From NCBI GenBank assembly GCA_022393335.1, contig JAJEKB010020874.1:184506-248505 (forward strand): a DNA stretch of 64,000 nucleotides, given 5' to 3'. The notes beneath the pieces are model-generated. The model saw nothing but the letters and a program-made list of their open reading frames with translations, did no database searches and was not told the origin of the DNA. The DNA is from Macrotrachela quadricornifera. Taxonomy: Eukaryota; Rotifera; Eurotatoria; Philodinida; Philodinidae. The position numbers and the translations under genes were made by a program. Shown piece by piece: positions 8,947-53,100 of this stretch. Numbering within the stretch: the stretch's first letter is position 1; every line of letters starts with the position of its first letter.

Positions 8947-11853
8947 TACGCTACTGGTTATTGCATGAAATGCGATGGGAAGATACAGTGAAGGCGATGA
9001 ACATTTTCCGTTAGTACAATGCTATTTTGCAGACGATGTTCATGATGAATGAGTTGATGCGATCATCTCTTATGAGTTGTACCGGTTTGAATGTATAGTC
9101 AAAGTACATTTGAATCGGTATCGAAAGGATGAAAAGGCAAAATTTCTATATATACTGAATATTTAATCATTCTGACTAGCTTTTAGTCCTACTTCCTGTA
9201 TTATTGTAATCTGATATTAATAGTCGTATTGAAAGAGATATATGCGTCTTACAGCTTGCTATCCATTGAAATGTATGAAAGTTTGCCAAACAATTCAGTC
9301 GACGATAGTAAAAGGAAACGTTTTTCCTCTCGCGACAACTGCTGCTTCTAATTTATTTCTCGTAGTTGTATGAACACGACAGCATCCAAATGTGCTATAA
9401 TGACGCGGATATATTCAGGACTCTGAATCTGCATTTGTCACCATTGATGGATGTCCGTTACATAAGTGTTTCGTGCCAATAGCGTTTATAGCGGCGCCTT
9501 GGAACAAGCAGCAAGCGTCATCATGCGCTTCGAAGGAGTGCATTGTGAGTCCTGTGGTATTTTGATAAAAAGACTTCCTTTCTGTCGTCTGATTTGTCAC
9601 TGGGGTTTCATTGTTTTTTTTTGGTCGTTATGTGTCAATGTCTCTGTAGGTGTTAGCTATTATCTTATTCATTTCCAATAATCTAACTCGATCTTCTGCG
9701 AATTACATCATGCATGAGTCTCTACAGCGTATTATTTTTCAGACAAAACTTGGAAACTAAGGGTATTAAACTGCTTTACAACGATAAGTTTTTATCCCTC
9801 CACATGTTTTGAAACTTAGGCTGAAGGTTGAATTCAATGTTACCGTTTGACACATGTTTTTTGTCAGACTCACATGACAGGCAAAAATTCATAATTAGGA
9901 TAAAATTTATTTTTTTCAATAGTACGAAAATAGTGCAATCTGTTTTTCTGATTTTCAAAGTGATATCATGCAATCGAAACTTTATTGTTAATCAAATTAG
10001 AGCCCGGAACGAGGTGAGGTGAAGTGGAAAACGCTGCCTCAACATATATACTACTGCTGCATACCGACGGACATGTATCGTTTTTGAAATGATGCTTTGT
10101 TCTTTTTTCAAAAGAAAGGTATAAAATTGACTGCTTGAATCTTCTAATTCTCTTCTTCATTTATTCAATCATCTTCCTTCTGCTGTTTACAATCTTCAGC
10201 ATCCGTAAAATCATAATAGCATTACATTCTTCGTTTTTTTCTGCTCTTTGAATTTTAGTACAACTTCTCTCAAGTAATTCAGTACATTCTACAGTCCAGC
10301 AAAAATAACATAATCAAATATTGGATTGACTAAATTAAGATTTTCTGCTCATTGCTTTCTTGTTGCGTCAATTAGTTGTCGCTTATTAAATCTAATAAGC
10401 TAAAACTGCTTTAGATATCAAATGACGCAATACCTCTGTATAATGTAACTTTGTTTAAATTTTAATTGTTGTAACTCAGTTTGATGATAAATTATTAGAG
10501 TGATTGTTTTTCTTTATCTCGAACTAAGTGTAATATAAAAATGCTTACTGTGTGAAGGTTTTGATTGCTTATAATATTCATAATCTTACTGCCTTACAAA
10601 TAACTACTAGTAGAACATTCTAAGAGCAATATTCATCAAATTGAAAAAGAAGAAAAGTTTTGCTTTACGTCTCAAGTTACCAGGTACATATGAAACATCT
10701 GAGCAACAATCTTGATCATTTCTTATACTCCAAAACAGTATTAGTTTTCCAGCTTTTCAAATCTCTCTACTGTCAAAAGATTTGAAAGGCAGAAGGACAA
10801 AAGAAGCTTTAGTTTTCATTGAAGTTTATGAAACCAGAGTTCGCGTACCTCGAAAAACCTACTAAATGGTGTGTATGCTAGCCCTTCATTATTTCCATTT
10901 TGTTCTAATTTTGGCAAGTGATTATGACATGTGATTGTAGTTGGTGTGAAAAAGAGAATATGAAGTTTTCTCTATATAGTTGACCTTGGCTATCACATAG
11001 TAAAGAGCGGAAGGTATTTTCTGAAACTAAAACTGAAACGATGCATTTATCTTATTTTTTCTCTTGCAAATCGGGTTAATAATAATAACCGGTTGGTAGT
11101 ACTAGGACTAATTATATAATACAGTTATGTCAAGTAAACGAATCAAATTTCCATGTAGTTTTGGATATCAGAAATATAAAAAATAGTGCACATTTTTAAT
11201 TATTACAACTTTCTCGAAGCGAAGCGAGGCATTGACATTTTACCTCGTTTCGGACTCTGATTCGAACTCAATTTAGGCATCTGACATAACTGATTTATTT
11301 TAAAACTTAGCCATAGACACTTAAATACAAAGTTATACAAAAAATATTTTTATTTTTATTTTCATTTATAATTTTATATAAAATTTACAAATGAAGACTT
11401 CACTCTGAGTTTATATAAAAATATAACTATTTTTTATTCCATTTATATTTATTTATAAATTTTATCTATAATTATTTATTTTATAAATGATATAGAACTT
11501 CTGTAAGTCTATTTATATTATAAGTCGAATTAGACATTTCATATGGATTGGATTGGATTGGGAATTTCATTTTGATATAGAAAATAAATTTTCCAATCCA
11601 GCCGAAACTCAAGGGTTATACTTTATCGCCATATACATTTATATTAGCTATTAATAATAATTGATGCCTGTTATTGATGCAGTGAATTGAATTTGCAGGA
11701 AATTCATTTTATAACTATTTCATTTGAATTTCTAGGAAATTGGAAATTACCATCGCATGATTCTTTTATATAAAATGACATTTAATAATTATTTTTTTAT
11801 GTCTTTTTTCTTTTTCCACATATTATAAAGTTCAACATTTTTTTCTAAACACA
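8947..11853. other. Unassigned spacer, AT-rich
   Basis: No gene is supported. The stretch 11337-11520 is strongly AT-rich, and a short GGATT run lies at about 11543-11558. A short frame near 9466-9600 is more GC-rich than its surroundings but has no recognisable product. Confidence 0.5.
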
Positions 11854-12846
11854 ATGGTTAACTTAAACGACAATTCAACAGAATCTGTAATAGTGTATGA
11901 AACTCAACAGACACGTAATATCAAATTTGGTCTTTTCGTTGCTCTTGAACCACCAGCATTAATCTGCAATAGCATTCTTGTCTATTATCTGATCACCGAT
12001 CGAAAACTACGCAAAACGCTTCATTATCATACTATTTTGGCACTACTTATTGTTAGTTTATTGACAAATCTTGTAGAAGTACCACGAATCATACGTTATT
12101 TACATATTGGCATTGTTACACCACAAACATATGTCAACTGTCTTATTTGGCAATGGTGTGATTATTTACTGTTTAGCACAGCCAATGTTTTGATGTTTTG
12201 GACTTCTATTCAACGTTATCTACTCATCTTTCATACCCGTCTTTACTCTACACAAAAACATCGTTTGTTTTTTCATTATTTGCCTTTAGCAGTAATCATT
12301 ATCTATTTGATCATTTTTTATGCTATAGTTATTTTTGTCTATCCATGTGCGCAACAATCTATTTTCAGTCAACCTCTTTGCGGTTTTCCATGTTATACTA
12401 CACAAACAAATATTTCGTTCTATGATCTTTGTGCTCATACGTGGTTTCCTCTTTTTTTCGATATGGTTCTGAACATTATTCTTGTTATGCGAGCGGTCTA
12501 TCGAAAGCGAACTGGTCTTCAGCAATATAATGGTATACGATGGCGTCGACATCGCAAGATGATTTTTCAACTTCTCCTTATTTCAAGTCATTATTTAGTA
12601 TGTCAAATTCCTTTTGCTGCCGTACTATTTATCCAACTGTTTACCAGTTTGTCTGACTTAGCTGCATATATACAAACTGTCTATTTCTATTACTTATTCT
12701 GGTTACTTACGCTTCTTTTTCCGTTTGCTTGCATCGGATGCTTGCCCGAAGTAGTGAATAAGATTAAAAGATCATTAAAACAACGAATGAGCAAAAAAAG
12801 TATGGTGGTACCTGTGACATTTATTTTGCTTCAATATAGGAAATAA
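11854..12846 (+). CDS. Orphan rhodopsin-like 7TM receptor, single exon
   Basis: This 330-residue frame begins at an ATG and has no intron. Seven hydrophobic segments can be drawn at about 25-47, 59-79, 100-122, 142-163, 195-215, 236-262 and 276-298, the layout of a plasma-membrane G-protein-coupled receptor. N7 lies in an N-glycosylation sequon in the short outer tail. C96 with C176 or C180 could form the usual loop disulphide. The DRY motif at the end of TM3 is QRY (120-122), and TM7 lacks NPxxY, having [12 protein letters not shown] instead. These departures suggest a fast-evolving, lineage-expanded receptor. A peptide or small-molecule ligand is possible, but none can be named. The C-terminal tail is basic and short. 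Confidence 0.75.
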
Positions 12847-15783: not shown

Positions 15784-17139
15784 ATGATCAATCCGACGAA
15801 AAATATGAGTGTTACCTCTGATACTTTATTGTTTAAGGATAATATTGATGCCATCGATTTGACTCTACCCACTGATCATATAAAACTTGTTAGTATTTCA
15901 CTTTTTGAATACACAGTAAAATTAATAATGTTTTTTGTAGACTCCAGATAGTGATCAAATGCACGTACCAGTTGTGAACTTTTCTCAATCCAATAAATCT
16001 AAAAAAGCTAAGCTGATAAACAAAACTAATGAACGCATCTGTGTTGTTTGTGGTGATCAAGCTTTTGGATATCATTACGGCGCTATAACATGTAATTCTT
16101 GTAAAGTTTTCTTTAGTCGTAATGCTCGTNNNNNNNNNNNNNNNNNNNNNNNNNNNNNNNNNNNNNNNNNNNNNNNNNNNNNNNNNNNNNNNNNNNNNNN
16201 NNNNNNNNNNNNNNNNNNNNNNNNNNNNNNNNNNNNNNNNNNNNNNNNNNNNNNNNNNNNNNNNNNNNNNNNNNNNNNNNNNNNNNNNNNNNNNNNNNNN
16301 NNNNNNNNNNNNNNNNNNNNNNNNNNNNNNNNNNNNNNNNNNNNNNNNNNNNNNNNNNNNNNNNNNNNNNNNNNNNNNNNNNNNNNNNNNNNNNNNNNNN
16401 NNNNNNNNNNNNNNNNNNNNNNNNNNNNNNNNNNNNNNNNNNNNNNNNNNNNNNNNNNNNNNNNNNNNNNNNNNNNNNNNNNNNNNNNNNNNNNNNNNNN
16501 NNNNNNNNNNNNNNNNNNNNNNNNNNNNNACAAACCAAAAATCAAATAGCTCTTAGTTTTATCACTTTTTTTCGTCGAATCAATGAATTTGAAATTTTAA
16601 ATAATGATGATCGTTTTACATTAGTTAAATACAACTTACTCTATCTATTGCTTTTATATAAATGTTCAATTTACGATCCATCGATGGGCTTTTTTTCAGA
16701 TTTACCAAAAGAATTCCAAAAAGATTTTTCTCCATTGTTAATTAGTTGTCATGAAGCCCGTGAATTTCATAATAAAATACTGGATATGATGCATTCATTC
16801 GTGAAAGTTACCGAACAAGAACCTATTCTGTTTTGTCTCCTTTCCATTATACTTCTTTTCTCTACCGATATGTTAATGACTGAAGACAATGTTCAACTGA
16901 ATGATTCATTAACTGTCTATCATGCTCAGTCTCATTATGTAAGTTTAATTTGGAATTATTTAATAGACAAACAAGGTGAAGAAAAATCAGTCAAACAATT
17001 TACAAAAATAATAGATATGATTTTACGAATGCAATTTATAACAAAACGACTGAAAGATTTTGTAGGTGCACAACTTATCTCGTTCAATGTTGTCGATAGA
17101 ATGACTCCATTGATTCAAACCACATTTAATATTAATTAA
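15784..17139 (+). CDS. Nuclear hormone receptor with DNA-binding and ligand-binding domains (gap inside)
   Basis: Exon 1 (15784-15888, ATG start, 35 codons) splices through gttagt...ttgtag to 15941. The second exon carries the first C4 zinc finger, [14 protein letters not shown] to [10 protein letters not shown]; the CNSCK P-box gives DNA half-site choice, and the finger ends at the sequence gap. After the gap the ligand-binding domain resumes at 16531 and ends at TAA 17137-17139. The frames before and after the gap differ (398 bases between codons), so at least one intron or a wrong gap size lies inside; the second zinc finger must be there too. A nuclear transcription factor is the family role. 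The paralogue at 1-594 shares the ligand-binding half. Confidence 0.8.
16130..16529. other. Assembly gap (400 N)
   Basis: Exactly 400 unknown bases, a round number that may be an estimate rather than a measured length. Confidence 0.95.
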
Positions 17140-18526: not shown

Positions 18527-19925
18527 TTACGAGATACAACAGTGACATGTGTTTAATAAAATGCCAACATTATTTAATGTATTGTCAGTAATAACAATAT
18601 CTAATTCTCCGTCGTTATTGAAATCACCTAAAGAAATCGAAGTAGGAATACTACGAGCTCCGGCTTCATACGTTATTGCAGGTAAAAAAGTTCCATTGTC
18701 AAAACCAATGAATACGGATATACTATGTGCATAATTATTAGTAAGAGCAAGATCTAATTTACCATCATTATTTAAATCACCGACAGCAACAGAAGTTGGA
18801 CGACTATAATAACCAGTCGAATATATGATTTGTGACTGAAATGTTCCATCACCATTACCAATCATTATACCAACATTGTTCCTTTCGGAATTGACAATAG
18901 CTAGATCTAATATATAGTCACTATTGAAATCATTAACAGCGATTGCATTTGGTTCACTAAAATGTTCAAGTGAAAATGTCGTAAGTACACTAAAATGCCC
19001 ATCACCACTACCAAGTAAAACACACACAGATCCTTGCATATTGGTAACAGCAACATCTAATTGGCCGTCTCTGTTAAAATCACCAACACCAATCGACAAT
19101 GGAATTCTACAAGCATCATTGTGATATGTCGTTCGTCTTTCAAAATTGAGTGTACTATTACCAATCAACAAAATTATTTTGTAATTATAATAGGTAACTA
19201 AAGCAATATCCAATTGATTATCTCTGTTAAAATCCCCAACACCAATGGAATTTGGACAGCTACCAGATTGAAGTGAAAAAGTCCTTTGTGCATGAAAAGT
19301 TCCATCATTATTTCCTAATAGAAGACCAACATTATCCGTACCACAATTAGCGACAGCAAGATCTATTTTATCATCTCTGTTAAAGTCACCCAAAGTAAGA
19401 GATCCTGGTTGGCTATCAGATCCCGTCGAATAAGTTATTTGCTCTTCAAAAGTTCCATCATTATTTCCTAATAAGATGCCTATATTTCCCATACCATAAT
19501 TAGTAACAGCTATATCTAAATGACTATCATTATTAAAATCAGCAACAACAATTGATGACGGTCCAGAATCATAACCAGTACTATATGAAACTATTGATTC
19601 AAATGTTAATTGACCAGTTAATCCTAACAAAAAGAATATAGTTAATTAATTTAAACATTAAACCTAGAAAGTTGTTAGCACAATATTTCCTGTCATTAAT
19701 ATGTGAAAAATATCTATTATGCTGACATTCTAATGTCAATTAATTCTGTAGGAAGAAGGAAATTCTATTATAAATCAAAATTATTTTCAATATTAAATTC
19801 TAATTATATTATTTTGTAAAGAGTATTAAATTAAATTGAGAATTACGAACCTGATGAAATCGATCCTGTTGTCGTCGTAATTGTTTTATCAACTGTTAAA
19901 TCTATTGTTGTCATTGTTGAAGAAG
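18527..19925 (-). other. Extracellular Thr-rich linker and FG-GAP/VCBS propeller
   Basis: Exon 11 encodes a Ser/Thr-rich linker (SSTMTTIDLTVDKT, then TTTTG). Exon 12 encodes seven repeats of about 50 residues, each with a DFNxDxxxDxA loop and a GDGTF-like strand, the calcium-binding blades of integrin-alpha-type propellers. The family role is adhesion or ligand recognition. Taken alone this would be read as a separate VCBS gene, but no in-frame start codon was found in exons 11-12. Confidence 0.8.
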
Positions 19926-22900
19926 CTAAATAAAACAGTATATATCATAATGAATATTTCCAATGCATAAAATATAATATGAAAAATAACTCATTGTTAA
20001 TCATTTAAAGGATTCGAAGTGATCCAATCGTTTTGTTTTTCATTCTTGAACTTAACCACTAGACATGATCTTCATCAATATAATTGTTAATATTCTCAGT
20101 AATTATCAGCATTGGGTATTCATAGAAGTATGTTAAATAAACAAGTATGTGTATGGGTATCCACATCTGAAATTTATCTCTCAATAGAATATCCTAGTTT
20201 TGTCGCATTATGTATAGTGACTGTTTTGTTTTGAACACACCGATTCATATAAACAGTCCAATAAAACATAATAAACTAAGTTTTTTTTTGTCTAGATAAT
20301 TCCTTGATTATTTATTAGTCGAGAATATGCTGATTTTGATCGTAAATTGAGAGAGGACTACCTTGAAGTGGTCTCATAGAGATTTGATTAACCCAAGTCC
20401 AATCAAATCTCGAAATTTAACTTGATTTTTCAGAGTTGGAAAAAAAAATTGAAAAAATGTCAATCTCTTTGAAAGAGACAAAACTGAAAAAAGCCAAAGA
20501 TCAAGTTCGATTGTCAACATATTGCAATATTGACAAGAGTATACCTAAAAATACTGTGGAATAGTAGTATCTGATCATTATCATTCCCTAGATACTTTCC
20601 AGCAGAGTACCTAACCAAATCCTTTATATGAATCTTAATGAATTTTAAGATACTTCAGTATCCAAAATTTCCTATGTTCTAGTTAATCTATATAATTGTA
20701 TATAGTTTTGGAATAGATTATAATAAATTATTTCTAGGTAGATAACAATATGAAGATTACGATTTATTTTTTCACAAGTCGATCTATAGAAATATTGAAA
20801 ATGAAACGGTTTTTCTTAAAAAAGAAATTTGATTCATTGTATAACTAAATTAATCATAAAGAGATGAAAACATACTTAATGGTAAACTATAATTTTTATA
20901 TTGTTGATTAAGATAAACTGATGTTATAATAATAGATATAATCATAAAAATAAATATGATAATACTAAATATAAGACACCATAATAATCTTGAAAAAATA
21001 TTTCTCCTATAAAAAAAAATAATTATAGAATATGATTAATAACAAATATAAAAGAATATACGATTGTGTTGAAACAGTAGAAATCAAATTTTGATTGTTA
21101 AGATCAAATTTTATATTATCATTATGAATAATTGATAATTGAATAGATGATATAGGTATAACAATATTTGATTTCTTTTTTCGATAATAATATATTTTAT
21201 CTATAAAATAAACAATATTTGGAGATATCCATCTGAAAACAAATGTAAGACCACCATAAAGACCAAGTAAAGTTGTTATTGTATAAAGATAATTAAATCG
21301 TGGAATATATTTATATGAACATGAACTTGGAGAACATTGATAAAAATATGATGAATAATTAATCATTGTTGACCAATTTTCAATAAAAAGTTCATTTACA
21401 AGATCAATTATAGTTGTATTCATTAAGAAACGAGTCATATTATTAAAAAGAGATAATGGAATATTTGTTATACTAATATTATTTATCTGTTGTTGAATAA
21501 GATAAATACATGATTGATCATAGAAACATTCTAAAGTTGATTGAAGAAATGATTCAGTTGGTCTACATCCCATTTTTAAACCTTTTATTGGTATTATTTC
21601 CGATGAATTTATTTTCATAAAAACAGCTTGAGTAGTACAATTAGAATTTAATGCACATGAACATTCATTATCATAAATAATTGGACGAGTAAATACAGAG
21701 AAATCATTCGATGTATAAGGATAAACAATATATTCAAAATTAGTTCCATAAGATGATATAATTTTATTCCCATGATTTATTGATTGAAGTATATATAGAA
21801 GTCGAGTAAATGTTATAGGAGCATTTGATTTACTCTGTTTAATAATTGAATCAATTTGTATATTAAAAACAGATGGTGATAGAAGATGATTAGTAATAAA
21901 AGATGATGAAAGAAATTGAATTATTAAATCATTTGTTGTTTGAATTGATATATTACATAAACCAGATAAAAATTGTAAATGTGAAGAAATAAAACGACGA
22001 TAATCTCGAATATTATAAACAGAAAGATTAGGAACAAGACCTGATGTTACATTTATTCGCCATTGTTTTGAAATAAATGGACTTGAACATATCTATTTAT
22101 TAATTAAATATTACTAGAATAAATTAACCTTTTAATACCTTAATCAAATTCTATGCAATTTTCATCTGATTCAGCTAACTATTTTTTTTGTTAGAAAAAT
22201 CTCCATTTCAAATTTCTACAAATCTATTCACTTACAACGAAGAAAAACTATAAAAAAAATGTTTTATTTATCGATTTCTGATGATCAAAAAATCAAATAA
22301 AATTTGAGAAAGTTATAGGAAAAATACTCAAAAATTCATTTATTCCAATACCATTCTTTTTTTTTACCTGATGAAATACAGGATTAATTTTTATAAATCG
22401 ATCATATGTTGATGATATTGATGAACAAGGACATTGAAGTGTATTGTTATAATTATTTATAAGATGATAATAAGTATCGAGGGAAGGTTTATTAAATGTA
22501 TTTGTTAACATCTCTGGTTGAATTATAGTATAGAGACCAAGAATACTGAAACCGATTATTAAAAAAATAATAAAAACTCGAGTAGATAATTGACCAAGAT
22601 GTTTAGCTTTTGATCGACTGATATTACTTCCAAATGTATGAATAGGAAATATATTTAAATTGATTAATGTTGTATACAATAGAATAATTAAGTTAATAAA
22701 CATTTTTTTCATTCTATCGAACAATTTTTGATCATCTATGAAGATAAAAAAAGATAATTTATACTATCATTTTTATTTGATATTAAATTATATCTGATTA
22801 ATAATTACCTTTTTGTTGTGTTTTAACCTTTGGTTTAACTAAGGAAAAGACAATATTGACAATTTGAGGTGTGATTATACGTAATGCAAGAATAAGACCA

Positions 22901-25900
22901 CCAATTGTGGAAACCAAATTAATAATTATTCTAATAAAACTATAAGAATGTATTGTATAAGAATAAGTACAATAAATTGGTGCACAAGCATTATAATATC
23001 TATCGAATGAATATGATGGATTCCATTGTTCAACCATTAGTTGTTTAACTATTGTTGATAGTGAAGTATTTGGAGGAAAACGACTCAATGATGAATTATA
23101 AATAAGAGTTTTAATATAAAAGAATTCTACACCTGTATCAAAAGTAGACATTGTTTTATTTATATATTTATATTGAATTGATAAACAAGAATCCGAATAA
23201 TAACATTCAAGTGTTGAAAGTAATAGAGAATCAATAGTAAAACAACCTGTCATCATACCCGGTACGGGAAATGGAATAAAATTGCCATTCTTTGGTTCAT
23301 AGTAGTCAATAAGAGCAGATGGACTCTGACAATCAGGATCAATAGCACAAATACAAGCAACTGAATCACCATTGATATTTATCATTCCGCTTAAATTGAA
23401 TTTTAACTAAAACAAAATAAAGATTACGTATTGTTAGTGATGTATTATCTAGTTTCTGCAAAATTTCCTTACACAATAAAAGATTAACGTACTTTGCTTA
23501 TACATTTTCGTCTGTCTTTCTTTTAGAATATTACTCAACTATTCATTATTCTAGAATATCTCGAAAGATCGCTAGATAATCAAGAATAGAGTGCTTTGAA
23601 GCAGTCTAATCGAAAAGTAAAACAAACTATGTGCCATAATTTTATTTTAGTGTGTTATCCATATGAATTAATGATACTTTTTGTACATGAACTTCTTTTA
23701 AAAAAAAGACAGTTGGAAATAACATCACTAAGAAAAGAAGAAGGGAAAAGAGATTTTTCTTTTCTCATGTTTAGATATATTCAAAGTTTTTTTTTTTTGT
23801 TATAGATTAAGTCAATGAAACTATTTTACTATCAATAATAAAGTGAAATAAAAACATTTTTATTTTTAAATCAAAGAAATACCTGTAACGATTGTTGACC
23901 ATTGATTTCATTTCTCGTATTAATAAGAAATAAATTTGCATTGTCAAAAGTTGTATAAGGTTGATCCACTTGAGTGTATAAATAAACAGTGTCAATAAGA
24001 CGATTAAATTGAATGATCAATGATTCTATGAATTGATTAAGAATTGTATTCATTTGATCATTAAAATCAGATTCAATGAGTACATTTAAAGTTATAAAAG
24101 ATTGCATGTTAAATCGACGAATAGCATCATCAATACTTGTATTAGCTAGTTGACAAAGAGTAGACAATAGTCGAAAATGTTTCGTTCCTAGACCAGTCCA
24201 TGTTGATAATGGACCATTCCAAAGATTAGTATCGAAATATGATAATAATAAAAGCCAATGTTCACTAACTAAATCACTTGAACATACTTGATGAAATATT
24301 GGTGATAATGACATCAATGTATGATAATCTATCACCACGTTCACACAAGAACATTTCAGTTCGTTTGAATGCAAATCTTGTAGATATTTGTATGTTGATA
24401 ATGAAGGATTCGGTACTATCATCGTACTATTTTCAACTCGTACACAACTCAGTATAACAAGAATAAGAATTGAACCTTAAATTATATTAATATAGTTATT
24501 TCTTTAACATTGTCTAATGAGTTTCTATCTTTCTGTAAAATTCTAGTTAGTTATTGAGTTCAACAACTGACTGAGATAGAAACTGGAAAAATTAGGAATA
24601 ATTCTCAGTTGCATATGAATTGACGTTAGTATATGAAGAACTTCTGACTGAACGTCATTATCAGTCTGGAACATTTACACCAGGTGTACAAAATATGATT
24701 CCATTTGTTGAAAAAAATTTGCTTGATTATTTTCAATTCTTTCTTATCTTCACCCATTTTCAATCAATATTTTACAAAGAATTGAAAGTCAATTATAGAC
24801 AGTTTAAAGAAGAATTTTTCAAATTATGTCAATCCAACACAAAATCTCTGCATCAATGAATGTTTCATGTACTGTATTCTCATACAAATATTTTTTTTTT
24901 GTGCTGAAATGGTAGGATAAGCGAAAAGTTCATATGGTTTCAACCATTCATTCGACAGCACATGTAAATTCAGATAAAATATATTGAGAAAATTGGAGAA
25001 GAGATTTGGAAATCTGTCTGCATTTTCAACTACACTAAAAATATGGATGAAATTGTTCGCGTTGACATGCAAATGTTCTTTTCAAAATGTACGAAAAATT
25101 CAGTAAAATGATAGTAGGTAATTTTTTCTATCTATTGGATATAGCAGTATACAATGCATTTATAATTTGTAAAAAATGAAGAATAATATTTCGCACTACT
25201 CGTCTAGTTTTCTGCTCGATTCAATCCGGGAAATTTTGGTAAAGTTCGGGCTAGAAAGGCCGATTACTATTGATAAGACCTTCTCTTCTCCATTTAACGG
25301 CTTGATATTTCCTTTGTTTATTCCACAAACATCGCAACTAGAACGACTTCGATAAAATACAGAGATGAAAATCATATTTAAACATCCTTTAGAAAAAGTT
25401 TGATTTTCGCAAAAATAAAAGCCAAAAGCTAAAGAAATGATTAGTGCTTAACTATTTAAATTTCAAAATTTCTAGTTTTCAAGTTCATTTTGATTTCATT
25501 ATTAAACTACTAAATCTTCTCATTACAATATGGAAGAGAAGGTACCATTACGTTGTCATATAACAGGTAATCTACAATTTACTACTTTATTAAAGAAAGA
25601 ATATTTTATTCGAGACACATTTTAACAAGTCCTTTCGATTTCATCATCGATACAATCTTAGTAGAAACGAATAGGTAAAATTTTACTGTTAATGACAATA
25701 GAGATTTAAACAATAAGAAAAACTTACTTGAAAGAAAAATCAAATAAACACGAGTGGTAATGCGTTGTTGTTTAATATGAATTGGTTCTCTTTCATTTGC
25801 TAATTTAAACATATTCAACTGTTTTATCCATTGAATAATCTTGTCAGTACATGTGAGATGATTAACTAGAAACAAAAATATAAATTTAATAATAAAAAAA

Positions 25901-28702
25901 AATTTATGTTTTAATAAAAATATACCAATGTTTGAATGATTCTTTATTGAATAACGTCTTAATTTTGATGCAATATTGATCAAGAATTCTGCAATTAAAC
26001 GAAGTATGATAATAAGACCACCATATATACCAACTAAAAGTGTAATTGTATAGGAAAAGTTAGTTTGATCCGTTTGAGTATATGTACAGTAGGAAGGAGC
26101 ACACTCAATAAAATATTTCGAGTAATTTATCATTGTTATTGATTCTTCAACAAATAGATTAGCTAAATTATCTTTTAATGAAAAATTTTTAAATTTTGAA
26201 GGTGAAAGAGTCTTTGACCAATTGAAGTTTGTCTAAATAAAAAGTTTTTTTTATATGATAAATAATATAATATGATATATACTTGATTGAGATTTGGAAA
26301 ATAATCATTAAAGAGTTGAAGACAATTGATATTGTATAGACAATCAAGTGTGCTTACAAGAACGGCATCAAATGGAGTACAACCTGCAAAAAATCCATCA
26401 ACGAATGCAGAAGCATTCGGTTCGAAATAAGGAGGATCCTCTGGCCAAAATAGATGATTTTCTACTCTTTCTGAATATGATAACGAATAAAAAGCAGATG
26501 GAACTATTGAATTTTTTAATTGGCAAGGTGAACCAAATTTTGCATAACTATTCGTAGAACTTTTGTTAAAATGATATGTAGATTTAGTAATTACATCAAA
26601 CATTGATTCTGTTACCATCCATATATAAACATCTAAATTTGTATTAAGTGCCGAAATAAAAAAATTTGATCGAAATATTATTTGTAGAAAATTTAATGGT
26701 AAAGTAACTTGAATTGATGTACTAGATTGAATTAATTCAGCATTATCATTTATTTTATATCCAACTTCTTCTTCTGAAAGAAGTTCAACAGTAATCAATT
26801 GACTATTATTGAAATCATCGAGAATTTGTGAAATTGTTTTTTCAGCCAGAAAACAAAGATCGGCAATAAGTGAAAACTAAATATAAACAGAATATTTTTT
26901 TTTCAATATGTACCTGTGCTGAGTTAAAGGTCGAATAAACCAATAGAAGCACAATAGGCAAAAAAACGAGGTCAAAAATAATTCCCAAATGCTAAATCGT
27001 TTTTAGATGAGGATTATGTACATCATATAGACTCTTATGAATGATGAGTATTTTGGAAAAAATCAATTTCCTTGAAACTTTGTGCAAAGAAAGGTCTCAA
27101 TGAGATTAGTTTATTCTGAAAGTTTCACATTCTTTGGAGTTCTTTCTATTTCAAGACATGAGTATAACCACGGAAGATAGATGATGATATACGCACTATC
27201 ACACAACAGACAAAAACTCGAACTAAGAGTCCAGAAAAATCTGAAAAACGAATTGTATCACTGGTTATAACAACTAATGAATATAAATAAATAGTTAATT
27301 TAAAACATGTATCTTTCTTACATAATCTCATTAATGATATTTCCTCATTTGATGTACTTTGTAGTATCTATTTCTTTAACAGATAATCGCTATAAATTCA
27401 ACACCATGGTAGCTTTAATACTAGCTAGGATATCGATTTTGTTGCCTAAATAATATCTCAATATGTGTATATCTGTCACCGGATGAAAAATTAAAGGTTT
27501 AACGTCATATACTAAAGAAGAAAACCATTCGAAAAATATCTCAATTGATTTTATTAATTCGTGTATAAGTATCAGAAATATTAATAAAGCTTTATACAAT
27601 GAAAGTTTTAACTATCAATTAGTAAAAAATTTATCTTGTTTTTTAAAAAAACAATTTTCATTTAATATTTATCAATGTATGATGAAAATCTATGATGAAC
27701 ATGATCCATCACAAAGAACAGTTTTTCAATGTATTCATTCTTCGCAAAATAAATAAATAATTACTGAAACAGATAATCAAACTGTTCTATCCGTTTAAAA
27801 TTAATCAATTATATATATGAATAAAGTATATTCTAACATTTGATCAAACACACGAATGAATTTATTTTTTTAGTTTATAAATAATGATTAATTGTACTTT
27901 TATTATTATCAATCTTAATAAAAATAATCAAATGATCTTATTGAATATCATTAACAAAACTCAATTATGTAATAATAATGTAGATAAATTGTGCAAATAA
28001 AATACTTTCGAATAATTATGAATTATGAAAATAAATTCATCGATATTAATGTAATAATAATATAACTTACTTGCGAACTAGCCGTTGTTCGAAAATCCAT
28101 AACTAAGAATGTACTTGCATCTGTGAGATATAGCGATTCAATCCATTGTTTACTGACAAAAATACTTGAACATAATGGATGAAATGAAATTGTTTTGTAA
28201 GCAAATGCTTTATATGGAATAGTGATAGTTGAACATGGACATGATAATGTTTCTGAATGCTCCAAACGAAGTTGATTGAATAGTGATGGAGTTAGATTTG
28301 ATATGGTTATTATTCGAGTTTGAGGATTTGTTAAAGTAACAAAGAAAAGAATGTAGACAGTTACTAAATAAAATAACGTATATGAAAATTATTGGAAAAG
28401 ATATTTTTAAAAAAATTCCAAAAAGCAATTTATTCATATTCATACATTATCTTTATTCAAAAAATTTTCATCCATTTAAAAAAATAAGTTCAACTGTTAA
28501 TTGATTGATAGAAATAAATCTTATATAACTTACTGATAAGAAGAGGAACATACAATCGAGTTGCATATTGTTGATGTTTGACAGATGTTGCTGCATCTAT
28601 TGTTTCATCATTATTATCATCATATTCATCTTCTTCTGGTATAAAAAGATTATAATCATGGATTTTATCATGAATCCATTGAAATAAATCTCTGATTTTC
28701 AT
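18527..28702 (-). CDS. Three-module 2-TM membrane protein with C-terminal FG-GAP/VCBS propeller, 12 exons, 1,797 aa
   Basis: Exons, 5' to 3' on the minus strand: 28702-28534, 28363-28071, 26876-26283, 26232-25926, 25865-25728, 24475-23883, 23406-22809, 22735-22368, 22092-21062, 21006-20876, 19925-19851, 19623-18527. All junctions are GT-AG, phases fit throughout, and the sum is 1,798 codons with the stop. Three homologous modules follow (about 50-436, 490-890, 950-1314), each TM, Cys-rich N-glycosylated ectodomain, TM. Shared marks are CPCS or CSC near the start, FHxxCSS, GCxxxxxxLxSTLxC, CxPxxCxY and IGG or YGGL in the second TM. Basic cytosolic linkers join them. A seventh TM (about 1371-1394), a Thr-rich linker and seven Ca-binding DxNxDxxxD repeats follow. 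N-in topology puts the propeller outside. I know no named family for the modules. The 950-1,250-nt introns are the weakest joins. Confidence 0.72.
21062..22735 (-). other. Module 3 of the membrane protein (TM5-ectodomain-TM6)
   Basis: A longer linker with an extra hydrophobic stretch (INLIILLYTTLINLNIF) precedes a basic segment and TM5 (RVFIIFLIIGFSILGLY). The ectodomain keeps LQCPCSSISSTYDRF, CSCALNSNC, GCRPTESFLQSTLECFY and QCSPSSCSYKY; TM6 contains LLGLYGGLTFVF. Most of the ectodomain sits in one 1,031-nt exon, unlike modules 1 and 2. Confidence 0.7.
22809..25728 (-). other. Module 2 of the membrane protein (TM3-ectodomain-TM4)
   Basis: TM3 spans the exon 5/6 junction after RVYLIFLS. The ectodomain has LKCSCVNVVIDYHTL, FHQVCSSDLVSEHW, CICAIDPDC, GCFTIDSLLLSTLECYY and ACAPIYCTYSY before TM4 (INLVSTIGGLILALRII). 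Exon 6 has no credible start of its own, because it begins in the middle of TM3. Confidence 0.7.
25926..28534 (-). other. Module 1 of the membrane protein (TM1-ectodomain-TM2)
   Basis: TM1 is split by the exon 1/2 junction after RLYVPLLI. The ectodomain opens with LSCPCSTITIPYKAF and FHPLCSSIFVSKQW. It later has FFAGCTPFDAVLVSTLDC and ends with ECAPSYCTY before TM2 (YTITLLVGIYGGLIIILRL). The central CxCx5C cluster of modules 2 and 3 is reduced to one Cys (SPCQL). Confidence 0.7.
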
Positions 28703-36532: not shown

Positions 36533-38053
36533 TCAATGATTGTCGAGTGCAAACTTCCTAACTAAAAAATAATACAAAATAGTAGAGAATAAGTTGAACT
36601 TGAAAATTCTAGATGCTGATGAATTCTGTCCGCATACATATTCTCGATCATTCGTTTCAACTGTTTTGCGCAACATATGATCGGCTACTTTTTTTCCAGT
36701 TTCCAGTCCTTCTTTATATGCACCATGAACAAATCCGTAGTGCTTTTGCGAATACGCTTCACCAGCAAAATAAAGTCGCCCAATTCGTCGCCGCAGATTG
36801 TTATGTTGGCATTGTGAAGTGCCAATCGGCCAATTAGTATACGAACCACGATACAATGGATCTAATGTCCATCGATGATAATAAAAATTAGTCGGCTGTG
36901 GAACATTTGTTCCAAACATCGATCTTAATACTGCCATAATTTCTGTCAATGTCTGATTGTTACTTTGTGCTTCAACAACATAAGCTTCGTTGGTGACAAC
37001 AGTGACAAATATAATATTGCTTCCAGGCAGAAATCCAGTTTCACTCAATGACTGCCATTGTGGATAATAGCCCCGTCGATATGGATCAGCATACAAAAAG
37101 AACTGTGTATCATTCCAAAATTTGTAAGGAAATTGAAGAAATATTTTTGTATAAGTTACCATCTTGAATTTAAAGATAGATTCCTGTTTCCATGCTGGAA
37201 ATGGTGGTACAAATTGAATATCATTGTGTTGAAGGACGCCAATTGAAAATGTACAGATGGCATAATCAGCCAAGACGATGAGACCATTTTTCAATGTAAT
37301 GTTTACCGAAGTGTTTGAATACGTCACCATTGTAACAGTACTATTAAAGAGGATGTTTTTACTAGTACCAAATGTTTTGGCTTCCTCACGCGCCAGCGTT
37401 GCATATCCTCGTTCGTCTGTAACCAAATGATTAGTATTTGACCATTGATCGTAAGTCGCAACATCATTACTTGCTGCCTGAATCATACTCGATGCACTTG
37501 GTGTATCAGCATATTCAAAGTCAAATGTCCACCAATCAGCTACCATTTCGTACGGTGTCTCAGGCTTCCATCCATTGAGATTTTGGCTTTGCGCAAATGA
37601 CAGATCTTCGAGATTCGATGTTTCCCTTTCTACTGCATCTTCTAAAACTTGATCATAATAGGAAAACGCTTGACTTACAATATCGGAATAATTGAACCAA
37701 CCGTTCTGATCAAATGTCAATAAGTCATCATTATCGCTGCGGATATTCGTAATATTGTGTTTTTTCGCCAATGTCCATATTGGATTTTCTTCTCCTGTTT
37801 CATTATTTTGGATACCTTGAATCCAATTAGCACCTAATTCAATCGTATGTCCGCCAAATTTCGCTTCTTTCATTCGTCCACCAAGAACTGATTCCGCTTC
37901 AAGAATAAGAAACTCAGAAATTCCATTTTCAGATAAAGTCCGAGCAGCAGCCACGCCAGCCATTCCACCGCCAAGGATGACAACCTTTGTTTTAATAACT
38001 TCAGTGTTACACAAGTTTAGAAAGCCAATCAGGAATAGTAAGCCAAGATACAT
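36533..38053 (-). CDS. Secreted flavin-containing amine oxidase, polyamine-oxidase-like, intronless
   Basis: This single frame of 506 residues starts with a signal-peptide-like segment (MYLGLLFLIGFLNLC). The FAD dinucleotide-binding motif follows at 28-33 (GGGMAG), with E52 at the strand end that binds the ribose. ELGANWIQG (72-80) is the active-site entry motif of polyamine oxidases, and the C-terminal FAD segment is GRLYFAGEAYSQKHYGFVHG. The family oxidises spermine or spermidine to aldehyde, amine and hydrogen peroxide. The length equals that of plant and fungal secreted polyamine oxidases (about 500). A hydrophobic C-terminal stretch (FNLFSTILYYFLV) could be a membrane or GPI anchor. The lack of introns, beside genes with 12 and 30 exons, hints at horizontal origin or retrocopying. 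Substrate is inferred. Confidence 0.85.
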   Translation of the reverse strand: MYLGLLFLIGFLNLCNTEVIKTKVVILGGGMAGVAAARTLSENGISEFLILEAESVLGGRMKEAKFGGHTIELGANWIQGIQNNETGEENPIWTLAKKHNITNIRSDNDDLLTFDQNGWFNYSDIVSQAFSYYDQVLEDAVERETSNLEDLSFAQSQNLNGWKPETPYEMVADWWTFDFEYADTPSASSMIQAASNDVATYDQWSNTNHLVTDERGYATLAREEAKTFGTSKNILFNSTVTMVTYSNTSVNITLKNGLIVLADYAICTFSIGVLQHNDIQFVPPFPAWKQESIFKFKMVTYTKIFLQFPYKFWNDTQFFLYADPYRRGYYPQWQSLSETGFLPGSNIIFVTVVTNEAYVVEAQSNNQTLTEIMAVLRSMFGTNVPQPTNFYYHRWTLDPLYRGSYTNWPIGTSQCQHNNLRRRIGRLYFAGEAYSQKHYGFVHGAYKEGLETGKKVADHMLRKTVETNDREYVCGQNSSASRIFKFNLFSTILYYFLVRKFALDNH

Positions 38054-38288
38054 TTTTTCTTTGGCACTGAGTTCTATTGAAGTAAAAAAACTTCGAATAA
38101 TGTTTTTCTATAATGGGAAGAAAAGACAAAGTTAAAGAAGTAGAACAAGTAAATATAGATGATTGTTAATCGTATTACATATATTCTATATAATTTAATT
38201 TTCTATAGTTTTAATAACTTTACAGATGATTGTTCGATTCGAGATTTTATCCTAGAAGCTCATTTTCACTATCTCTAATTACAGATAC

Positions 38289-40869: not shown

Positions 40870-42263
40870 TTAGACGTTTAACTTTATACCCCGTGGCAGA
40901 CATATAGACACATGATATTATGTATACAGATAGATGGTTTCCTGACCCCTGGAAAACTGCGAAGATTGTAACCTTGAACAAATTAAAAGCAGGGGTGCCA
41001 CGACTCGACCAGACACGTCCAATATCACTTCTCCCCACACATTCCAAGATTTTTGAAAAAATAGTACTTGAAAAAATCAGGATATGGGCAGAAGGTACCC
41101 AACTAATACCTAAAGAGCAGTCAGGTTTTAGACCGGGCGGTCTGCTTCCTACTAGAGTATTGTCGATCTACCAGGAAATTAAGAACAACCTCGCAGCCAG
41201 CATGCCCACGCTGGCCATATACGTAGACTATAGAAAAGCCTACGATATGGTATGGCATGCAGGCCTACTAGTAAAGCTACGTGATCTAGGAATGCCAAGC
41301 GAACTTTTAAAAATGACTGCATCATGGTTAGGAAACCGCCAAGCGTATATTACCTTAGGTGATAGGACGTTGGGAAATTTCGATATAAACATCGGACTAC
41401 CACAAGGTAGTAGCCTAAGCCCCTATTTATTCATAGTTTACCATTGTGATCTAATCCATCGTTTAGGTGCACACTCAGGCCATCTCTTTGCGGATGACCT
41501 GAGTGTTATTATCAGAGCTCCTATTATGAAATCCCTCACCCCAATTGTAGAGTACCTAGAGAAAGAAGGCACTAGGGCGTGTAATGAAATAGCAGATTAT
41601 GCTAAAAAATGGAAACAGCCCATCAATGTACAAAAGACAGTAGCTCAGATTTTTTATTCACAAGTAGAACGCCCTAGAGTAAAAATCACAATGGAAGGAC
41701 AGGAGCTAGATATTGTAAATAAGTTTAGGTATCTGGGATTTATGTGGACTAGTAAAATGTCGCTGAAACCAACAATAGATCATAGCCTGGAAAAAGTCGA
41801 AAAAGCCCTATCTAAATTGAGATGGCTGAAGAAAGGTAGGAATATCTCGACGCCAGTGTTAAGACAATGCCTTTTCGCATATGTTTTTCCACATTTTTCA
41901 TGGATCTTTCCGTTTTATCCTTTTCTCCCTAAGACCCAACGGGAAGCGTTGGATAGGAAGTTTCGAGTAGCAATAAGAATAGTACACAGATGTCCATATG
42001 TTGCTGCTAAGGATTTATTCGTAGTAACCAAAGAGAAGCCACTGGAGTTTTACGTAAAAAGATTTATAAAAAGAAGATTGGAGAGGATATACAGATCAGA
42101 TTTAGGAAGCTCCTTATTCCTTGAAGATATATTCTACTGGGATAAATTTAGAAAAGAGAAGAATGGTGCAGTGAGACATCTATTCAGGCTGAAAAGGGTT
42201 AAGAAACTTATAAATAGACACGAAACTCTCCTAATCAGATGGTTCGACTTCGTACAAGAATAA
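40870..42263 (+). mobile_element. 5'-truncated non-LTR retrotransposon (LINE), reverse transcriptase ORF
   Basis: The frame from 40920 encodes 447 residues of a Jockey-like reverse transcriptase. It begins inside the domain (WFPDPWKTAKIVTLNK), with RPISLLPTHSKIFEKI (33-48), QSGFRPGG, YVDYRKAYD (101-109), GLPQGSSLSP (159-168) and the catalytic FADDL (190-194), followed by a thumb region. The endonuclease and first ORF are missing, as in typical truncated insertions. The retained frame is uninterrupted, so the copy is young or recently mobilised. The clade is uncertain. A stop-containing stretch precedes 40920 and no poly-A tail was clearly seen after the stop. Confidence 0.88.
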
Positions 42264-50161: not shown

Positions 50162-53100
50162 ATGCGCTCATATCAAATAGTCAATGAGGGAACGGATGAT
50201 CAATTTGTATGTTAAGTTTTATCTACAAAAAATTCATTTCAAGCGAGTTAGTTTATATCTGACTTATTGGTTGTTTTCGCTAGGTTTTATATGGCTATTC
50301 TCCTTCACGAGTACGAACAATCCTCACTTGGGCAGGTATCATTCTGACAGTTGGGTTTCTTCGTCTTGTTTTCTACTGGAAACCTCATTGGTTTCTTCGA
50401 TGTCGCTGTCATCAGGCCGATTTAGCTGTTGCTCAATATATTCTACTCAAGGTAAACTCATCACTTCTCGATAAAAGATATCTTTAACGCTTTCTCTGTC
50501 TATTGCAGGATCGATATCAACAGTGGTATGTCGAAAAGGTACTTAACTTCAAGGACAATCATAATGACATTATTCTCAAAGCATCACAGTACATATTCTT
50601 GACATAGATTGATTGACTACTTACTTTCATTGTCATTTTTTCGAAGACGTGAATTGAAGCCAATTGCTGAAGCAGATTGCAATAACTTTTCTCAACAACA
50701 GCAAACCAATGGGGTACGTATAGGTCAAATGAAATTTTCATTGCATCATCTCAAATTGAGACATCTAGAAAAGCTAGTAGAATCGCATGGTGAAATAATG
50801 AATTACAGCATATTGTCTTAGAGAGTATGACTTATGGTATGAGATGAAGGCGAAGAAACTCATTCCATGCTCCGTGCTAACATGCACACAGGCATTTTCA
50901 GTTCGTTCTCTGCATCGTCGCTCCGCACTTAATAGTTTGAAAATATACCGCCCCAATACGATTTCATGTAAAATGCCGTATTGCATCATTTATCGAAATT
51001 CAAAAGAATGTCTATTTACGTGGACTTTGTCACATCTACGACTTTCCGTAGTTTCGATTACATTTACGAATAGTGTTACCCGTAATTCTGAATTGTTTCG
51101 ATGAAACAAGTTGAATTTCTGATGATGCCTAGTTTTGAAGGTAGGTGAACTTGATGACGATGAGAGTAAAGGAAAGATCTTCACCCTTACTTCTTTCGAG
51201 ATTGATCTAAGAGAATCTAAGATTTGACACTAACATATATGCTCAGAGATATATTGCTATCATAACAGCGATTGGTGACAAATAAAGAAAAAAAAATACT
51301 TTAACGGAAGAAGTGTTTCGAAGTTCGAGGAATATAATTTTCAGCAAAAGAAGTAAATTTACGTCCAAAACAACTTGTGAACCTCATTGCATTACTCGCC
51401 TCGGTTTCTAGGTTTGCTAGGGTTTTATTCCTTCTATTCCATTCTAGAGAATTATTGGACGGTATTTTATTAACAAAAAATGGCGCTATGTATGGCATGA
51501 GGACGAATATAAATTTGCCAGACTTGCGTAATTACATCATTTTAATCATTATTTTTTATCTTTCTATATACTATTGTCTCATAGTGGTATTGAACAAAAC
51601 GTCACATGTGAATACTTTTGCCAAATTCGTCCATTAACTGCGAAGGAACGTGAACAAAAGTAAGAAAATACAGATAGAAGTATGTTATCAGTCAATATTT
51701 TGTATTTTATTTTTATTGATAGAAAAATTCAATACGGCGAGAATAGTATCCGTGTTCATCTTACACCGATTTTCACTTTACTAATTCGAGAAGTAAGCTA
51801 TTCGAGATGGTCAATATTATCGTAACCATATTTCATTTGTTACTAGATTCTTTCTCCATTTTATATTTTTCAATTGTTTTCATGTTCGTCATGGTATGCA
51901 GATGAGTATGTCATCTATGCATCATGCATCCTCTTTATTTCGATCATCTCGATCATTGTAACATTATATGCACTTCGAAAGGTAAACGTATGATTATACG
52001 ATTGAAGAATATAACTCAAATAATTTTCTTTTAAAATGATTACTAGCTTAATGCTAAAGAATGGTCTTTCAGAGAAAAGATCCAGTTTTCTTCATTGATC
52101 ATTCTATAAAATTTTCTAGAAGTGGCTCTACTCACCTCTCACTCTCATCCTCAATACATTTGTCATACTAAGCCAAAGCTGATTTCACAATTTCGAGAAC
52201 CATGAGGTTTCTAAATTTCATTGTTTCAAGGTCTTTGAGTATTCAAAATACTGCAAGCTTCATTAATTACTGAACTCGGACAGTTCAACTAGCTTAGTTT
52301 GTTACACATTTTGGACACCACTCTAAAAATTTCAGGTGTAAAAATCTACAATGATAATGGACAATCTGAAATCTTGGAATAAGGCTACGTTTTTAATCGT
52401 TCGATGCTCCGAAAAAATAGAATATGAATTTTGTTTTCAGACAAAGAAAACCACATCAATGGCTAACACTTCAAGTGTTATTCATGCAGAAATAGTCTCA
52501 TTTCTTTTAGAATGAACGTGCTCTACGTGATACTGTCCATAAATCAGAAATGGTGACAGTAATAATCTATAATCCTGAAACTAATGAAGGTGTACGCTTG
52601 CTGACATCATAACCTAATTAATATTCTTGTTTTTTTAGAAGAACAACATGAGATAATGAGTCAAGATATTGTTCCTGGAGATGTGATAGTAGTCCGTGGA
52701 TCGACAACGATGCAATGTGATGCTATTGTTCTCGTTGGAAATGTGATTGTTAATGAATCAATGTTAACAGGCGAGAGCATACCAGTGACTAAAGTACAGA
52801 TTCCCTACTATAAAGCATCAGCTGCTCATGCTGGTCTCACCCAATTGTTTGATAGTCGAGAACACAGTCGATTTATACTTTTTAGTGGTGCAGGTATTAT
52901 TCAAACGCGCTATTATGACGGTGGTGACGTAAAAGCAGTAGTGATTCGAACAGGCTTGTATCAGAAATTCGTTGAAAAAACACAACAATTGTCTTATTTT
53001 TGTTTTAGGATTTAATACTACCAAAGGGGAATTGATTCGATCTATCCTATATCCGAAGCCAGTTGATTTCAAATTCAGCAAGGACACATATAAATATGTG

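Follow-up and report, generated by a model that had tools for sequence, protein, structure and literature searches.

The window analysed here is a 64,000-nucleotide stretch from the rotifer Macrotrachela quadricornifera (GenBank assembly GCA_022393335.1, contig JAJEKB010020874.1, positions 184,506 to 248,505 of the forward strand). It contains a minus-strand gene of 12 exons (28702..18527), rebuilt from the raw sequence, whose product carries three mutually homologous modules in tandem (M1, M2 and M3), each with two transmembrane (TM) segments, followed by a seventh TM segment (TM7), a stalk and an FG-GAP propeller. By sequence comparison, the protein is a member of a large and so far uncharacterised family of bdelloid proteins in which the order of the modules is kept. 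It is somewhat favoured that the protein acts as a single-chain, fixed-order assembly of three modules which, with its propeller, passes an extracellular signal across the membrane.

All 11 introns are of the GT-AG type with consistent phases throughout, and the spliced frame stays open over exactly 1,797 residues up to the stop codon at 18527-18529. Six proteins of Adineta steineri and A. ricciae (1,741-1,835 residues), which are gene predictions themselves, could be aligned in all five segments of the window protein. Identity was 46-57% over 416-469 residues per module, 32-51% in TM7 and the stalk, and 37-45% in the propeller. At introns 1, 2, 3 and 8, all seven aligned rows cross the junction without insertions or deletions. 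At introns 4-7 and 9-11, at least one row has gaps or insertions within about 10 residues, mostly in cytosolic linkers and the stalk. Exceptions are P0003, in which residues are also missing where the first TM segment of M2 (TM2a) begins, and P0005 and P0006, both missing a few in ectodomain 2 close to intron 6. The agreement between the frames of separate paralogs over about 1,800 residues is hard to explain otherwise, and the exon joins are therefore, judged from sequence, not a product of chance. A merger in the gene model of two genes, one for a three-module protein and one for a separate TM/FG-GAP protein, would fit the many homologs that stop after module 3 and lack TM7 and the propeller. 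It is nevertheless very improbable, because the splice at intron 9 is in phase and the TM7, stalk and FG-GAP part is common to all six Adineta homologs (67-69 of the 69 residues of TM7 and stalk and 343-362 of the 365 in the FG-GAP part could be aligned).

The homology of the modules to each other is evident from BLASTP (E values of 2.4e-30, 5.5e-51 and 8.3e-44; 25.8-30.5% identity). With a hydropathy cut-off of 1.6, TM segments were found at residues 50-68 (TM1a), 415-433 (TM1b), 494-512 (TM2a), 858-876 (TM2b), 951-969 (TM3a) and 1374-1392 (TM7, the strongest), while the second TM segment of module 3 (TM3b) lies below the cut-off and was assigned by homology and from the structure predicted for a homologous module. 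Each module thus has two TM segments and one large cysteine-rich ectodomain, with both ends predicted to lie inside. Among 131 three-module chains, 12 cysteine columns are conserved in M2, 12 in M3 and 10 in M1, and these may form disulphides. Moreover, 30 of the 32 N-glycosylation sequons fall in segments predicted to be outside, which is weak support for this topology because such segments make up 1,437 of the 1,797 residues. No Pfam match above chance was found in the module pieces of the window (best E value 0.02), and a module profile had no match in the other open reading frames (ORFs) of the window. A cytosolic motif (YNLF, LNMF and LNIF at residues 17-20, 471-474 and 924-927) precedes the first TM segment of each module. 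Among 125 three-module chains, similar motifs were observed near the start of M1 in 69, of M2 in 94 and of M3 in 78.

Downstream of TM7, a stalk (residues 1393-1432, 42.5% Ser/Thr) joins module 3 and TM7 to the product of the last exon, which matched the FG-GAP families PF13517 (2.6e-59) and PF01839 (5.5e-28). Seven DxNxDxxxD motifs with calcium-type loops, which may bind calcium, are spaced 50-51 residues apart, as expected for a seven-bladed beta-propeller. The initial annotation had described both a single 12-exon GT-AG gene with an open 1,797-residue frame and three tandem cysteine-rich 2-TM modules with a seventh TM segment and an FG-GAP propeller. The former was confirmed by the rebuild and by end-to-end homologs of similar length, and the latter was borne out by BLASTP between the modules, hydropathy and Pfam.

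The C-terminus after the shared core varies among homologs, which carry FG-GAP repeats, NHL repeats or neither. Of 139 well-covered chains, 50 have at least three FG-GAP loops and 12 have other tails or too few loops. NHL repeats replace FG-GAP in P0036 (confirmed by a second Pfam scan) and P0041, and occur together with FG-GAP in P0057; in a Pfam scan of five chains, P0098 matched FG-GAP (PF13517, 7.1e-25) and P0053 had no match. The Adineta vaga gene model P0302 has a rhodopsin-type 7TM domain (residues 31-249, PF00001, 2.1e-10) upstream of the modules and is possibly a merged annotation. Two further three-module homologs, P0011 (after residue ~1387) and P0017, have long tails (857 and 623 residues, respectively) in which FG-GAP loops are absent; judged by eye, the P0011 tail seems to consist of a repeated unit, and its sole Pfam match, Calpain_III, lies below the cut-off.

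The extent of the family was examined by three protein searches, which admitted only proteins of 0.55-1.75 times the query length and gave 207, 235 and 330 matches; the best 120 of each were listed, and 349 different proteins were fetched. The only organisms named among the matches listed were Adineta, Rotaria and Didymodactylos, all bdelloid rotifers, and the other rows were mostly metagenome proteins. For the 120 long matches listed out of 207, the rounded module coverage is three in 90, two in 30 and four in none. A profile search of other rotifer proteomes for the three-module order had been suggested, and that order was indeed recovered: position-specific profiles, for which 131 of these chains served as the training set, classed 349 chains (the window protein plus 348 of those fetched; in the remaining one of the 350, every piece was too short) as M1-M2-M3 in 156 cases. 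The others have fewer modules or unclear ones: 97 are M3-only, 70 are M2-M3 and 26 are of other types. The M3-only and M2-M3 classes are partly a product of the length limits and of queries on module 3 or M2-M3, fragments among the homologs being kept in the counts. The summed module coverage of all 350 chains never exceeds three (maximum 2.80 model lengths), even in the 27 chains with at least four partial matches (maximum 2.72), and chains of 2,052, 2,244 and 2,444 residues still have three modules.

Position in the chain also separates the modules in a tree of 84 modules, which sampled 15 of 55 complete three-module chains and 39 modules from shorter chains. The first modules of the 15 chains form one group (support 100/100), and the second and third modules each form one group that includes shorter records of like type (100/98 and 100/99). 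In these chains, triplication therefore preceded the expansion of the family, with the order kept afterwards. Furthermore, intron 1 in M1 and intron 5 in M2 split the first TM segment at a homologous codon and with identical phase (codon 57 and codon 501, each 8 residues past the conserved Arg of a 'TR' motif), and introns 4 and 7, in the tails past the second TM segment, are both in phase 1; module 3 has no first-TM intron. Such introns are the trace expected if a phase-1 block of exons had been duplicated within the gene. Because the position-specific clades are separate and the M1 and M2 introns share codon and phase, the sequences argue for an old intragenic triplication.

Structure prediction was applied to homologs of the window protein. 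The single module P0129 (89-row alignment) was predicted with a predicted local distance difference test (pLDDT) score of 88.0 and a predicted template modelling (pTM) score of 0.72. The model has a long first TM helix, a strand directly after it, two successive long helices (131-161 and 172-208), late strands, a cysteine-rich region of helices and a strand that runs on into the long second TM helix, and it had no significant match in the PDB (0 at E<=0.001). For the three-module homolog P0091 (1,197 residues, 64 rows), AlphaFold2 gave a pLDDT of 79.3 and a pTM of 0.74, again with no significant PDB match. A rough pTM ceiling for loosely placed modules, from a formula of our own with 2 Å within modules, is 0.41-0.48 at 20-30 Å between them and 0.56 at 15 Å. 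Since the pTM of P0091 is above this ceiling, the predictor seems confident about the relative placement of the three modules, and the modules of one chain seem, in the model, to take a defined relative position.

Several known systems resemble this architecture in part. The DEG/ENaC channels (ASIC, ENaC and FaNaC; PF00858) likewise have two TM segments, ends inside and a large cysteine-rich ectodomain, and ASIC1 was the top structural match, a weak one, to the three-module model. They assemble from three separate subunits, whereas here three modules lie in one chain with TM7 and a propeller added. A highly divergent concatenated DEG/ENaC channel, in which each module would have the DEG/ENaC fold and the three would form a cation pore gated by the bound partner of the propeller, is unlikely. 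PF00858 had no match at E<=1 in eight window pieces or in P0129, and it was not among the 25 families listed (of 54) in a Pfam scan of 89 homologs. Comparison by hhalign of a profile of 434 diverse modules with ASIC1 and alpha, delta and gamma ENaC stretches, a set of four sequences lacking TM1, gave a probability of 0.3% and a score of 18.0; 30 column shuffles scored 11.1-21.5, five of them above the real score. DEG/ENaC channels have a G-x-S (GAS) selectivity tract in TM2, and no such tract was found in the second TM segment of the modules (131 chains). The commonest residues after the conserved GG in all three modules are instead L-x-x-x-L-[R/K]-x-I-x-P, which places a basic residue within the membrane segment. 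The initial annotation had seen no motif proving DEG/ENaC kinship, only a matching topology, and the absence of PF00858 and an hhalign score within the shuffle range agree with it.

P2X receptors, trimers whose 2-TM subunits have an ectodomain rich in disulphides, are similar in plan. No P2X match was found by Pfam in the window pieces, and no P2X chain appeared among the Foldseek matches listed, which does not exclude the fold. A precedent for the fusion of oligomeric channel subunits into one chain is provided by Nav/Cav channels, whose four repeats have a fixed order and are thought to have arisen by fusion of like subunits. The propeller is of the integrin-alpha type in its seven FG-GAP repeats and DxNxDxxxD loops; it differs in being fused behind a multi-pass core, with no other notable Pfam domain in the window pieces.

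The following mechanism is proposed for the favoured single-chain assembly. The three diverged modules, each with both ends in the cytosol and an ectodomain of about 340 residues, would pack together like the separate subunits of trimeric 2-TM receptors and channels. TM7 would cross the membrane past module 3 and hold the seven-bladed propeller outside on its Ser/Thr-rich stalk. The propeller might bind an extracellular partner, such as a ligand, a glycan, a particle or an adjacent cell, and deliver it to the core of three modules. By pore opening or a change of shape, this core would relay the signal across the membrane. An extracellular cue would thus be received through the variable ectodomains and, where present, the propeller. 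A normally separate three-part membrane complex may, in this way, have been fused into one molecule. Ion conduction as a fused channel, whether of the DEG/ENaC or the anion kind, is not a likely part of this function. More specifically, it is rather doubtful that the protein is a natural single-chain trimer, which would make this the first family with all three subunits of a trimeric-type 2-TM ion channel fused in fixed order; three basic residues, one from each TM2, would then ring a pore that favours anions, with exchangeable propellers, diversified across the bdelloid family, as built-in sensors.

The main rival of the favoured assembly is a plain receptor or scaffold for adhesion and recognition, in which a rigid three-module scaffold would present variable ectodomains and the propeller to recognise cells, food or microbes, a role that would fit a large family confined to one lineage. 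This is a possible reading with less confidence behind it. It would suit the number and diversity of paralogs found in Adineta, Rotaria and Didymodactylos, the different C-terminal propellers among homologs and the basic residue in TM2, but it leaves the fixed order of three 2-TM modules without explanation, and many family members have no propeller. In the part of the 2013 Adineta vaga study available (PMC3846280), FG-GAP and NHL proteins are among the expanded bdelloid families, for which defence, chemosensation and cell communication are suggested as roles, also in keeping with a receptor; that part names only repeat motifs and does not describe a three-module core.

Several observations weigh against a single-chain assembly of three modules with a propeller. 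First, 59 near-complete chains have two modules, 52 of them of type M2-M3; should complete genes be among them, a third module would not be obligatory. Compared with the three-module P0241, eight of ten two-module homologs (P0170, P0185, P0294, P0303, P0251, P0213, P0295 and P0336) best match residues 415-448 to 1193-1201, corresponding to modules 2 and 3, and P0237 and P0138 fit differently; these homologs may represent whole genes with two modules, or else gene models from which the first module has been lost. Second, 77 of the 139 well-covered chains extend no more than 60 residues past the last module and lack a propeller, a count inflated by the third search, which took shorter proteins only. 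Third, residues 909-927 in the M2-M3 linker have a hydropathy of 1.88, above the cut-off and without a place in the scheme, and the topology would change if they crossed the membrane; as some homologs, such as P0099, appear charged there by eye, they are read here as an amphipathic helix, which is not proven. Fourth, P0091 stops short of the second TM segment of module 3 (its third module matches positions 23-318 of the 414 in the profile), and the result for P0091 consists of confidence scores. Fifth, mean-field direct coupling analysis of the 131 three-module chains with a reduced alphabet gave no usable signal of inter-module covariation; even within-module scores were not reproducible (correlations of 0.02-0.04), and same-orientation overlap was not clearly above opposite. 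Finally, we know of no function or structure for any relative. The earlier idea of a naturally concatenated trimer joined to a calcium-binding propeller is supported in part: the three modules lie in one chain, in a fixed order and with a defined placement in the model, and three-fold symmetry was not seen.

Other features in the window include several Pfam-matched reading frames (Table 1). A nuclear-receptor zinc finger (PF00105, 7.3e-12, within 15941-17136) runs into a 400-base N-run at 16130-16529. The ORF after this run, which has no Pfam match, resembles by eye the ORF at 1-591, which suggests that the two are tandem copies.

Table 1. Modules and exons of the three-module gene and other Pfam-matched features of the window
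Feature	Position	Strand	Content
Module 1 (M1)	25801..28582	-	residues 41-476
Module 2 (M2)	22659..25776	-	residues 485-923
Module 3 (M3)	21070..22604	-	residues 942-1361
Exon 1	28534..28702	-	start codon, N-terminal cytosolic tail, beginning of TM1a
Exon 2	28071..28363	-	remainder of TM1a, beginning of ectodomain 1
Exon 3	26283..26876	-	ectodomain 1
Exon 4	25926..26232	-	end of ectodomain 1, TM1b (26046..25990), basic residue R430 (26001..25999)
Exon 5	25728..25865	-	M1-M2 cytosolic linker, first part of TM2a
Exon 6	23883..24475	-	remainder of TM2a, ectodomain 2; preceded by intron 5
Exon 7	22809..23406	-	ectodomain 2, TM2b (22929..22873), basic residue R874 (22881..22879)
Exon 8	22368..22735	-	M2-M3 cytosolic linker (hydrophobic stretch 909-927), TM3a (22577..22521), beginning of ectodomain 3
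Exon 9	21062..22092	-	ectodomain 3, TM3b (21279..21223, by homology), basic residue R1307 (21234..21232), cytosolic tail
Exon 10	20876..21006	-	seventh TM segment (20978..20922)
Exon 11	19851..19925	-	most of the Ser/Thr-rich stalk
Exon 12	18527..19623	-	seven FG-GAP blades, stop codon
Rhodopsin-type receptor	11779-12843	+	PF00001 (Pfam)
Flavin amine oxidase	36536-38107	-	PF01593 (Pfam)
Reverse transcriptase	40908-42260	+	PF00078 (Pfam)
P-type ATPase piece	52605-53012	+	PF00122 (Pfam)

What is new here is the family and its architecture, and not a demonstrated function. The module had no notable Pfam match in the window pieces, and its models had no significant match in the PDB. To our knowledge, there is no case of such a fusion among trimeric 2-TM proteins. 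Literature searches on rotifer DEG/ENaC channels and on natural concatemers, whose scope left out most subscription papers and all bioRxiv preprints, showed no such fusion among the matches listed, and nothing on the three-module family, including in the part of PMC9949801 available. The fusion of like subunits lets each of them diverge and fixes their stoichiometry. An animal family of this size, in which the triple module is fixed and the propellers vary, would be surprising to a membrane-protein specialist and, if the favoured assembly is true, it would represent a second independent experiment of subunit fusion, carried out within one animal lineage and in very many comparable copies.
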